Origin: Malania oleifera | Lineage: Eukaryota > Streptophyta > Magnoliopsida > Santalales > Ximeniaceae | Length of the DNA stretch: 64,000 bases | Assembly: GCF_029873635.1 (NCBI RefSeq) | Contig: NC_080422.1 | Span: 14,539,936-14,603,935 of the forward strand | Reading direction: 5' to 3' | Shown here: piece after piece, positions 1,939 to 16,331 of the stretch | Layout: each line of letters opens with the position of its first letter | Position numbering within the stretch: position 1 is the first letter of the stretch | Made by a program: the position numbers and the translations under genes | The notes under the pieces: model-generated | Seen by the model: only the letters and a program-made list of their open reading frames with translations | Databases searched by the model: none | What the model was told of the DNA's origin: nothing

Positions 1939-3759
1939 AACTCACCTTACTCAGTAAGCCCTTAGGCGGTGTGTTTTACCTCGCTTTAATTATTTATTAA
2001 CTCACGCTATTCATTTTCCATTTCATTCTTTTTTTCCATTTTCAGGTTCATTTCCATTTCTAATTATTTCCCTTTTCCATTTCCATTTCTAGCACATGAG
2101 TATCCTCGGTAACCCACACTACCGTGTCTGTAACTCATGGATGCCTTGAGGATTTTTCTCCACGCCATGCTTTCCCCCATGGTCAGGGTTGTGTGACCCG
2201 AAGGCTGGACTTAACCACGGTTGGCCGACCCGATTAAGTCAAATGTCATCACATATCTCATGTTTGTAGTACGACTGGCCAGCCAAAGCCCTGATTCGGA
2301 CTCAAGGGGCACAACAACTCTACTATATGGCTCAACTTACTACCACGCCACACACTCCACGGGCCCGTGTGGTTGCACTACTCCACCAGCAACGATACCA
2401 TGCTCTCAATATCATAACCCAACATTAGGGTTTCCATATCCATCCATCAAGGTTTCATTGCCACATACCAACAATCATTATGTGGTATTGACATTTCATG
2501 TCTGTATTCCCCGTGCGGAATTCCACATTTCATTTTTCCCAATTTAAAATACATATTGCAGAATTAACATGCAATATTCACATTTCCCTTTTCCATATTT
2601 CTTATAATCATGTTTCAAATGTTCACATTCCTCATATTCAGATTGTAGAATTTTACATTACAATATACACATTTCAAAACCAGTATTCTCAACACATTTA
2701 TCATTTCAATAATACTTTCTCAATTCATGATTCATTTCACCACATTTATCATATAAATATCTATTTTCACAAATATTCAGTGTTTCTCAAACACATTCAC
2801 ATAGTTCACATTTCCCCATTTTCTCAGAAAATACATTTCCTGTGTATTTCACTTTCATCATTTTTCCACAATTCAATTCTCATATCATAACCCATTTCAA
2901 TATCATATATTCCACAAGATAATTCATTTATCCTAGTTTAAACATTTTCCAACATAATTCACATGCCACACAAATTTCATCTGATATTTATATTATAAAT
3001 AAATTTTAGGTAAAATATCATATACCATTTCACATATTTCTCAACCCATAATTTACATAAAAATACTGCTATAATTTATTTACCTTACTTGACTTACTGA
3101 AATGCTCACAATAACACCCAATTTGACGCTCCTCGGCGTTCTCAACTCAAAAACCTACAAAATCATATTTTTACCAAATTAATCACCTCATTTCCCACAA
3201 CAATTTCAGTATAATACTACCTATATTTCAAATACCCCAAACAACTTATAATACTCTTAAATCTCTTACGTACCCTGGTTTGGGATGATGCCCAAGTTGA
3301 CCTAACAAACGAACTACTCCAGCAGACTTGAAGAGAATCTTTTTAGGAGTAGCGTGGTACCTTTCGATTGTCGATTCGGGCTTTAACAAAGCCAGAATTC
3401 TAGAGAGAAGAGGAGAAGGATGAGTTTAGAGAGGGAGAGACCAGTTGCATGAAATTTGCTCACTAAAATCCTGAGGTCAGTACTTTTATAAGGCACGAAT
3501 TTGTCGACGAGACATGTCACCTCATTGACGAGTCCATGAAGGAAGTTTGTCGACGAACTCGTAATCCTTGTCAACGAAATTTAGTCTCCCTTGAATAAAC
3601 CTCAGTAAATTCTCGTCGATAAGACACGCGTCCACGTTGACGAGCCCAGTAAGCCTATTCGTCGACGAGCAATCTGCGCTTCGTCGATGAGGCCCTACTG
3701 AATCCCCTCTTCTCTCCTTTCTTTTATTATTTATTCGCTATAATTCTCCGAGTCTCTAC
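1939..3759 (-). mobile_element. Degenerate gypsy-type LTR (minus orientation)
   Basis: The right end is ...GAGTCTCTACA (TGTAGAGACTC on the minus strand). The stretch 2180-2430 resembles 53240-53480 and, on the other strand, 57650-57920, so these LTRs share a module. The stretch 1945-1980 resembles, in reverse, repeats at 63540 and 63711. Palindromes of the GTCGAC type lie at 3490-3700. It is AT-rich between 2500 and 3100, and the open frames there are low complexity. The left boundary is uncertain. Confidence 0.5.
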
Positions 3760-3763
3760 ATAT

Positions 3764-4981
3764 GTATTCCACATTCTTGATTACTCTTCACCACAAGCCC
3801 TTCACCATGTGAAAATTCATCACTAGCCATTTTTTCTTCAATGAAAATCGAGCAATGCGCTTGTCACCTCTTCCATATTCAAACTTTCCTTGCCCCATGT
3901 AAGAGTGGTAACCAAGTTCTTATAAGTTTGAGACGTAGGTAGGGAATTTAATAGCATCAAGACCTTGTCTTTCTCCTCAAACTTTACATCAACACGCATC
4001 AAATCACTCACAATCTGATTGAATGTGTTGATATACTAGTTCAAATCTGAACCCTTCACCATCTTTAGCCAATACAACCTTTGTTTAAGAAAGAGTTTGT
4101 TCGATAAAGGCTTATACACTGCTTTCCAGTTTATGTCAAACTACTGTCGGAGAATCCTCATCCATAACCTGATACAACACATCATCAACCAAACACAGTT
4201 AGATGGTTGAGACTGCCTTTGCCTCCAATTCATTCAAAGTTGCTTCGTCCATGTCTTCTGGTTGAATTCCGTATAAGGCCTTCACCATGCCTTGTTGCAC
4301 CAAGAGATCCTTCACCCTTCTTTACCACCAACCGAAATTCCCGGTTCCATCAAACTTGACAACGTCAAATATCATAGATGAAGATCCAGAGGTCATTACA
4401 ACAATGCTCTAATACCAATTTGTTGTGTAAAAATCCCAAATATGTACAACGAAATATATATATTTGTATGAAAAGAATCAAACACAACATGCAACACTTT
4501 AATGGTGAATTTACAGAACAATCCACAACCACAACAAGTAAATGAAAGTAAGAACAATCACAATAATGCAAGGAATTACATGGTTAGACAATGCTTACAT
4601 TTACTAAAGCAAACGATAAGGATTCATTGTCTTCTTGTGTAAATTACAAGAAAAATACAATCCGCTCAACTCTTACAACCATCATACTTTAAATATATCA
4701 AATAAGACATATAAATAGAGCTCCCGGAGGTTTTCCCTCAAAACTCCAGCCATACTAACGTCCTCCCTTTCAAAATTCAAAAATATACACTGTGTTTCCA
4801 AATCAAATCATCAACGGTTTCAGACATAATGTAATTTATTTGAATTCTAGTGCCAAACCGTCGATAGTCCTAGCCAAACCGTTGACTCTTTCCCTACTGC
4901 TCTACTAACACCTTGATTTTCTACCATGTTTTCTTCCTTGTTCATACATTCCACTCAGCATATGAGTCACATATCACAACA
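3764..4981 (-). mobile_element. Ty1/copia remnant: 5' LTR plus part of gag
   Basis: The LTR is 4421-4981 (561 bp), with ends TGTTGTG...CACAACA. Directly inside it, at about 4408-4420, is a primer site reading TTGGTATTAGAGC on the minus strand, matching initiator tRNA-Met. The minus strand of 3764-4400 encodes broken gag-like sequence of the copia type. The rest of the element is absent, with an LTR of another family abutting at 3760. It is a broken fossil with several breaks. Confidence 0.65.
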
Positions 4982-14857: not shown

Positions 14858-15241
14858 GTGCAATAGCCACCGCTCTTCCTTGTGAATATGGAATGTTGTT
14901 GGTCTGTGTGTGTTTTTGTTTCTTTTCTTTTCAATCTTTGTGTGTGTGAGCATGCATGTGCTTGTGTGCACATGGACAATGTTATCGTGCAAATATGGCT
15001 TTGCTTTCAACTTCTTACATCACTTGAGTGTATCCTGATAACTCTGTGTGGCGAGAACATGGTCATTTACGAATGCTCTGTTCTACATTGTCGGTTGTCT
15101 ATGATCTGCATACATCGTTTTTTCCCATGAAGGTGCTGGAACACAGCACAGTTATGAGGGTATTAATATACTTTTTACTCTTTGAGGGCATTATGAGGCA
15201 CTATGATAGGGTAATCTCTATACAGATGGACACCTTCTCAT
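14858..15241. other. 3' flank of the 14201 gene
   Basis: This is T- and TG-rich sequence downstream of the stop, probably 3' UTR and flank; a GTGTGT stretch lies at 14900-14970. It ends with CTTCTCAT (15234-15241), the target duplication of the adjoining hAT element. No gene is seen. Confidence 0.4.
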
Positions 15242-16182
15242 TAGGGGTGAGCATAATTCGGTGAAAACCGAATTAATCGGCCGAAATTGGTTGGTTCGGT
15301 TTGGGTAAAAAACTCGATTCGGTCGGTTCGGTTGGGTTTTTACAAAAATTTGGTTAATCGGTTTCGGTTCGGTTAACAAAAAAAAAATAATTCGGTTAAC
15401 CGAATTATTAATTAATTAAATTTTAAGTATAAATTATGAACTTGAGAGTCTCGGAGAAGGGGATGACGACGCCGAGCTTGGTGCGGTTGCGGGGGAAAGT
15501 GATGGTGTTCCGGCAGACGGAGAGGAGGATGAGGGTCATGTTGAACTTGAGAGTCTCAGCGGCGCCCTTGGTGGTGGACCGGTGGTGACGCATAAGCCCA
15601 TGACGTCGAACACCGACCGGTGCTTGTACTGGATGAACTTCCAAGTAAAGAGGGTGGCACAAATGGCGAGCCACAGTAGGATTACCCACACGCGCTTCCA
15701 GTTGTCCTCCACGAAGTACTGGAGGTTGCGGTAGCCTCTCAAGAGCAAGTTGGGTACTTGGGTTCCGTGGTGGGCACTAGCTTTTGACTAAGTAATTGGC
15801 TGTTCGTCGCCAGGTTCGCCGACTGCCCCGACGCTTGCAGGCTTGCAGCAACAGCATCTCCAGAGTCTAGCCTCTCGGCCCTCAACGTCTCAGCCACCAG
15901 CTCGCTGTGCAAAACCAGACCCCAGCCTCTCAGCCACCAGCCATCATTTTTATTAATAAAATTAATAAATAAGGTATTTAATTAATCTGGATTTGATTTT
16001 TTAATTTTTTTTATAATAATCAATTTTAAATAATTTCGATTAAAATCGGTAATTTGGTTGGGTTTGGTTCGATTTCCTCCTCCAATTCAGTCGATTCGGT
16101 TAATGGTATTATTTAACCGAATTTTTTGGTTAATTCGGTTAATTACCCGAATTTGGCCAAACCGACCGTTTGCTCACCCCTA
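15242..16182. mobile_element. hAT-type element (941 bp) carrying a host gene fragment
   Basis: It has perfect 12-bp inverted ends, TAGGGGTGAGCA and TGCTCACCCCTA, flanked by CTTCTCAT on both sides (15234-15241 and 16183-16190), the 8-bp duplication typical of hAT transposons. Subterminal regions are packed with TTCGGTT/AACCGAA motifs, often transposase-binding sites in such elements. No transposase is present, so it must be moved in trans. The middle (about 15430-15950) is GC-rich, quite unlike the ends, and contains a fragment of an RBOH gene. Confidence 0.85.
15440..15748 (-). pseudogene. Captured RBOH (NADPH oxidase) fragment
   Basis: On the minus strand two frames together resemble the start of the ferric-reductase transmembrane region of plant respiratory burst oxidases. 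One frame gives [20 protein letters not shown] and [20 protein letters not shown]; the next gives [20 protein letters not shown] followed by a KTKLGVV-like end. Intact RBOHs have DNW(K/Q)R(I/L)W, FIQYKN, VMGYC and [22 protein letters not shown] small length change near 15560-15575 shifts the frame between them. No start, FAD or NADPH domain is present, so it is not a working gene. It lies wholly inside the hAT element. A 15-bp stretch (GAGACTCTCAAGTTC) from its middle is repeated at its downstream end near 15440. Confidence 0.85.
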
Positions 16183-16331
16183 CTTCTCATCTCATCTCTG
16201 CCATGGGACATCATCCTAGTGAAGCTTGGATTCACTCAGAGCCCTCTGTTTGATACTAGCCAGCCCCATGAGAAAAGGCCTAGAGATCCCTTGGACGGCG
16301 CTCGCTTAATCCAAAATCTGCTTCTTAATCT

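Follow-up and report, generated by a model that had tools for sequence, protein, structure and literature searches.

A Pack-hAT family whose cargo was very probably captured from genomic RBOH DNA, and the order in which its copies were assembled

The RBOH-bearing element of the window (the whole 64,000-base stretch of Malania oleifera DNA analysed here, placed at G000:C6:14539936-14603935 in a genome of 1,494,336,490 bases, or 1.49 Gb) is very probably a late member of a Pack-hAT family (non-autonomous hAT elements) with a cargo captured from genomic RBOH DNA. The earlier note on this DNA had a hAT element picking up RBOH sequence and then moving to its present site: the uptake of RBOH DNA by a hAT element is borne out, but the capture took place in an ancestor, not in the window copy. 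This copy is a late derivative, with its introns lost, a self-copied patch at one border of the cargo, and a microhomology fusion at the other. Pack-hAT elements are a known kind, and what is unusual here is that the order of assembly events can be read: one genome holds a donor-type gene, copies at early, intermediate, and late stages, relatives that lack RBOH, and a likely autonomous partner, and because all of these stages sit together, the order of capture, scarring, and trimming is readable and testable. How cut-and-paste transposons acquire gene pieces is unsettled: it is described as not known (PMC3260210), and the origin of Pack-MULEs as perplexing (PMC8277862, abstract).

The window element, at 15242-16182, has the perfectly inverted 12-bp ends and the 8-bp target duplication that had been reported for it (Table 1), in keeping with the hAT superfamily, which has 8-bp duplications and short TAGGG-type terminal inverted repeats. 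With up to two mismatches allowed, the end 12-mer TAGGGGTGAGCA has seven matches in the window, of which only the two element ends are exact. The centre is GC-rich as described, with a GC content of 0.57-0.61 against 0.28-0.33 in the arms. As in Pack-TYPE elements generally, there is no transposase, host gene DNA lies between transposon ends, and the donor gene is elsewhere; the longest open frame has 117 residues and no Pfam match. Two other kinds of gene-bearing transposon were considered and set aside. Pack-MULEs have a 9-bp duplication and usually long inverted repeats, whereas the window element has an 8-bp duplication and 12-bp inverted ends; Helitrons with captured genes have neither inverted ends nor a target duplication, whereas the window element has both. 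A scan of viral contigs for the end motif gave 0 matches, and none of the papers listed by a literature search on the end sequence looked related from its title and the opening of its abstract.

Table 1. Coordinates, in the window, of the features of the RBOH-bearing hAT element.
Feature	Position	Strand	Remarks
Target site duplication, left copy	15234..15241	.	CTTCTCAT (8 bp)
Terminal inverted repeat, left	15242..15253	+	TAGGGGTGAGCA
Left arm, AT-rich	15242..15436	+	ACCGAATT subterminal repeats; 76% over 111 bases to L055 left arm
Copied patch, 19 bp	15437..15455	-	repeats the element's own RBOH coding DNA
Captured RBOH exon	15456..15862	-	donor L029 4578-4184
Footprint-like 8-bp near-duplication, shifts frame	15571..15586	.	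minus strand ACCACCGG / TCCACCAC, donor ACCACCGC; register by eye
Footprint-like 8-bp near-duplication, shifts frame	15749..15764	.	minus strand AACCCAAG / TACCCAAC, donor AACCCAAC
Exact 8-bp duplication, shifts frame	15833..15848	.	minus strand CTGCAAGC / CTGCAAGC
TGGAGA, 6-bp microhomology	15857..15862	.	read on the minus strand; where leader-like piece meets RBOH exon
Remnant of GC-rich block, about 42-bp units	15863..15941	.	common to RBOH-free relatives
Right arm, AT-rich	15942..16182	+	84% over 244 bases to L055 right arm
Terminal inverted repeat, right	16171..16182	-	perfect inverse of TAGGGGTGAGCA
Target site duplication, right copy	16183..16190	.	CTTCTCAT (8 bp)

The RBOH identity proposed for the minus strand of the centre holds. 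At the DNA level, 15456-15862 aligns to positions 4184-4578 of an RBOH gene in the same genome (L029) at 83% (E 1e-128), and identity to the exon part 4256-4622 of that gene is 89% over 355 ungapped aligned bases. At the protein level, the minus-strand translation, with two frames joined across a frameshift, has 76% identity over 49 residues with the published tomato RBOH motif 4, and the donor exon gives 84% over 50 residues. The proposed extent needs correction at both sides: homology reaches about 115 bp further right, and 15437-15455 on the left is a copied patch, not continuous RBOH. The RBOH-like peptide lies in pieces spread over all three minus-strand frames, and because its reading frame is broken, the window copy is most likely without protein function. 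Neither the window fragment alone nor the donor exon matched any family in Pfam searches. A PDB search with the fragment alone gave no match at E 0.001 and only two weak phosphodiesterase matches (E 0.2 and 0.35) at E up to 10; a scan of viral contigs for RBOH-like protein gave 13 stretches that fitted a pattern, none of them confirmed. RBOH pieces of such elements could be mistaken for RBOH genes in annotation.

A genome search with window 15420-15790 returned 52 candidates, 40 of which were scored; all 40 matched and were fetched. With 40 of 52 candidates scored, the family counts are lower bounds and rarer forms may be missed. One match is the exon of an RBOH gene on contig C4 (L029), and the other 39 are hAT elements of a single family (at least 39 copies) on twelve contigs (C1-C12). 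Ends of the TAGGGGTGAGCA type are present on both sides in 38 of the 39, with at most two mismatches per end, and the 8-bp duplications flanking these 38 are identical in 26 cases, differ by one mismatch in 11, and by two in 1; unrelated flank pairs, as a control, were identical over 8 bp in 2 of 3876. The 38 target duplications are 38 different sequences. With 39 of 40 scored matches in elements and 38 distinct target duplications, the cargo was amplified along with the element, as in Pack-TYPE elements. The claim that a hAT element with captured RBOH DNA moved as a unit is correct. In one copy (L042, about 1-2010 of the printed reverse strand), other DNA breaks in near donor position 4372, and no hAT end was seen there when the copy was read for a nested hAT; its other arm is absent from the fetched stretch, and it was excluded from the tree and from the target-duplication count. 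For L002, the inner rather than the outer end was used in the copy comparison and in the same count. Among the first 20 copies fetched, the mean pairwise difference is 8.4% within the 14 class B copies and 11.9% within the 6 class A and C copies (classes defined below), and transitions make up 77% of changes. Three relatives (L052-L054) have the same arms and ends as the family and no RBOH; copies with and without the insert, for which the earlier note had suggested a search, are both present in the same genome. Each of these three has an inner end-like motif such as TAGGGGCGGGCA.

The likely autonomous partner is an apparently complete 5.8-kb hAT element at C1:107506249-107512053 (L055 50-5801 and L056), with both ends exact, the duplication CCTCAAAC on both sides, and a 732-residue open frame matching Dimer_Tnp_hAT (3.3e-33), hAT-like RNase-H (8.8e-25), and zf-BED (2.5e-4). 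It has its first 35 bases in common with the window element, and we infer, because ends and arms are shared, that it drives the family; full-length elements with these ends would have supplied the transposase that spread the copies. Searches with the right arm (1597 candidates, 40 scored) and for the hAT dimerisation domain (1711 candidates, 150 scored) place 8 of the 40 scored arm matches 1.1-1.9 kb from a same-strand transposase match, the C1 element being the one fetched.

The RBOH parent that the note had proposed looking for is represented by the donor-type gene on C4 (L029). NADPH_Ox matches lie upstream of the captured-type exon (one of them contains a stop where the search reads on, so that the gene may not be fully intact), and Ferric_reduct and further oxidase-like frames lie downstream. 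With splice sites placed by eye, the upstream exon ends GGATACATTGAG, followed by GT at 3722, and the captured-type exon spans 4174-4602, followed by GTATATACATATTC. NADPH_Ox also led to three other RBOH loci; among the matches listed (8 of 20 elements), these align with the elements at 65-87%, over shorter stretches. The L029 intron also holds, at 3801-3893, the motif TTTTGGTGAGCA, three mismatches from the hAT end, with the near-inverse CCCACCAAAA about 80 bp further on (by eye), perhaps an older small insertion.

Set against this exon-intron layout, the copies differ in how much of the gene they keep. Class A (10 copies: L011, L014, L019, L033, L036-L039, L041, and L043) aligns to L029 4043-4622, that is, the end of the upstream intron, the whole exon, the splice donor, and the start of the next intron; class C (three copies: L013, L016, and L020) starts at 4085-4096 and runs to 4622. 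The five class D copies join an upstream stretch (3647-4040 in L044, 3647-3962 in L046 and L047, 3795-4040 in L045 and L050) to a second one, from 4246-4263 to 4622, and L044, L046, and L047 hold the end of the upstream exon as well as intron. In class D2 (three copies: L048, L049, and L051), about 3767-3962 is joined to 4236/4256 up to about 4580. Some of the upstream RBOH intron survives in all copies of classes A, C, D, and D2, together 21 of 39, and a processed pseudogene was rejected on this ground; L044 is 94% identical to the donor. None of the outer capture borders coincides with an exon join; they fall within introns or an exon. Because intron flanks the exon on one or both sides in these other copies, comparison with the parent's layout decides, for the family, in favour of capture from genomic DNA. 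The 3' border near 4622, in the downstream intron, is common to classes A, C, and D and to L035 (19 of 39 copies), which argues against a separate capture for the intron-bearing copies; a single capture of about 976 bp (L029 3647-4622) or more would account for the family.

The earlier note had named as fatal to its reading a target duplication around the GC-rich centre itself. None was seen, the flanking 8 bases being different (ATAAATTA vs CATCATTT), nor was the centre seen to be a later separate insertion: comparison of the copies shows that its two borders arose separately. At one of them is the 19-bp patch, a copy of an upstream coding segment, found in 16 of 39 copies (L001-L010, L012, L015, L017, L018, L034, and L042) and reading GCCGAGACTCTCAAGTTCA in most of them, which replaces the end of the exon and the first bases of the intron, together some 55-60 bp, retained in 19 of 39 copies. 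In the window element, it gives a 16-bp repeat, with 15437-15452 identical to 15542-15557; this repeat was considered as a border scar of the first capture and dropped, since the copies show a later patch. Class D2 carries another copied patch at its 3' border, unlike the first, and L040 has its own deletion.

At the other border, class B (17 copies including the window's) has a shortened GC-rich block fused directly to the exon at TGGAGA, a motif present in both partners: on the leader side in the chimeric L013, L016, and L020, and on the exon side in the donor and class A. In class C, the block stands before the RBOH intron, and the same block occurs in the RBOH-free L052-L054. It looks like the transposon's own 5' leader: that of the transposase-bearing L055 matches the L052 block at 83% over 96, 94% over 32, and 96% over 25 bases, the L013 block at 87% over 30, and window 15894-15925 at 84% over 32 bases; the L016 block gave no match to this leader. 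The stretch at 15863-15941 is GC-rich yet resembles the transposon's own leader, and a second captured gene there was considered and dropped. The number of units of about 42 bp in the leader-like block differs between copies L001-L020, as in a small tandem array. The 5' loss seems to be the earlier of the two events because L035 begins at 4181, like class B, yet retains the full 3' border. In a tree of 38 elements and the donor, in which bootstrap values had not settled and 3 of 36 inner branches are well supported, one clade (99/95) of 20 rows unites 16 class B copies (including L040), the 3 class C copies, and L035 and is nested inside class A: the chimeric and patch-bearing copies fall within the intron-bearing ones. 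L041 groups with the donor (66/66) despite carrying two footprints.

These observations suggest the following sequence. An ancestor would have taken up about 1 kb of genomic RBOH DNA, at about 3647-4622 of donor L029: the tail of one exon, the intron of about 450 bp that follows it, the next exon in full, and 20 bp at the start of the intron after that. The uptake may well have occurred by template switching during repair of a break inside the element, a route that we moderately favour and that is read from the scars only. The transposase of full-length elements would then have amplified the RBOH-bearing copies; later nested hAT insertions would have left 8-bp footprints upon excision; deletion at a microhomology would have brought transposon leader and exon together; and the 19-bp patch would have been copied into the other border during repair. 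A possible, if rather doubtful, alternative to template switching is that two neighbouring hAT ends bracketed host DNA and jumped as one unit, the tandem-insertion model already proposed for Pack-TYPE elements (PMC8903248). Arrays of this kind do arise in this hAT family: at 798-1106 of L002, another left-type end occurs 289 bp beyond the element, and the 8-bp sequence CTTGTTTG precedes each of the two ends and also follows the element, possibly a tandem-end intermediate of the sort proposed for uptake of host DNA. However, the matches to donor L029 consist of the RBOH part and short AT-rich stretches, with none to the arms as such, no inner terminal inverted repeat is seen by eye at the capture borders of L014, L043, and L044, and the patch copied from inside the cargo suggests repair synthesis, though only for a later step.

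Relative to the donor exon part 4256-4622 (367 bp), insertions longer than 2 bp never exceed 8 bp, and deletions of 3-12 bp occur at 10 places, each in one copy. In pattern tests allowing one or two errors, three insertions are nested in the family: none is in the eight D and D2 copies; L043 has only that at 4455, as does L042, which lacks the other two sites; those at 4455 and 4286 are in L039 and L041; and all three are in the remaining 27 copies, except that L009 and L018, in which the site is altered, do not fit the 4455 pattern. Private insertions occur in L034; in L010 with L017; in L005, L008, L009, and L018; in L007; in L012; in L037; and in L048, L049, and L051. The last three copies have five 6-8-bp near-duplication sites in common in the exon. 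We infer that the footprint-like sites reflect nested hAT insertion and excision within the cargo. Footprints of Ac/Ds centre on the complement of the bases adjoining the transposon (PMC5873905), and at four sites here (AACCCAAC, ACCGCAAC, ACCACCGC, and CCAAGCTC, register by eye) each of the two junction bases may be read as complementary to its donor counterpart. Replication slippage is an improbable source of these near-duplications, even though short tandem duplications can arise in that way, the duplication at 4198 is exact, the 4455 site carries an additional change and has just one of its two junction bases altered in L043, and insertions of 3-7 bp and deletions occur too. The 8-bp ceiling on insertions in the exon part and the Ac/Ds-like junction bases speak against it, as does the rarity of such scores among random 8-bp insertions (n=20000), of which 0.28% reach at least 14 of 16, as three footprint sites do, and 0.8% at least 13, as the 4455 site does. 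No copy with a hAT still in place at a footprint site was found among the 39. Tentatively, GC-rich gene DNA inside a hAT element could be a repeated target of the same transposon system, with nested hopping driving the remodelling of the cargo; if so, the breaks opened in this way would expose the cargo to trimming, to patching with copies of itself, and to fusion with transposon DNA, and the family would record these steps in order.

It is very unlikely that the family has been kept because antisense or small RNA from its RBOH pieces would tune the donor gene: RBOH does stand antisense to the transposase direction (the arms being collinear), and of the 524 21-mers of the two joined donor exons, 51 occur in the window copy and 263 across all 39 copies, but such sharing is explained by descent alone, and the copies decay (mean pairwise difference 8-12% among the first 20). 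Capture from spliced RNA, to which the window copy taken alone might point with its exon and no intron left, is least probable of all and can be practically discounted, given the upstream intron end, exon, and next splice donor in the 10 class A copies, the upstream exon end plus intron in L044, L046, and L047, some upstream intron in 21 of 39 copies, and outer borders that avoid exon joins.

Gene capture by hAT elements had been described in the earlier note as little reported. A study of maize Ds, with 11 gene-bearing elements, does call it rare (PMC3260210), but it is in print also in PMC2528002, PMC8903248, and PMC8277862. Among the papers listed by literature searches, none points in its title or the opening of its abstract to RBOH within a hAT element, and a term search of the text of a 2026 review (PMC13317346) gave no whole-word match for hAT. 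Among animal Pack-TIRs, 208 of 370 belong to hAT (PMC8277862); like the present family, they point to gap filling or template switching with microhomology and to later multi-copy amplification, whereas their hosts are animals and a nested footprint series was not found in the parts of their description consulted. The grapevine hAT family Hatvine-6 likewise has a variable inner part drawn from genic DNA (introns and exons) and non-genic DNA, but its elements share a transposase coding sequence (PMC2528002), of which the window element has none. The Pack-hAT elements of maize and rice are similar in having hAT ends, no transposase, host coding DNA, and multi-copy clusters, but were found with Bg and Ac ends (PMC8903248); the present family has other ends, and its intermediates, copied patch, and footprints are resolved within one lineage. 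Maize Ds2 and Ds-l4 are also non-autonomous hAT elements with an 8-bp duplication (Ds-l4 is about 1 kb), and their filler DNA comes in a few cases from host genes, with introns and with the donor elsewhere; they have 11-bp Ac ends (TAGGGATGAAA) and number 11 gene-bearing elements in all (PMC3260210), whereas the present family is one capture in at least 39 copies with ordered intermediates.
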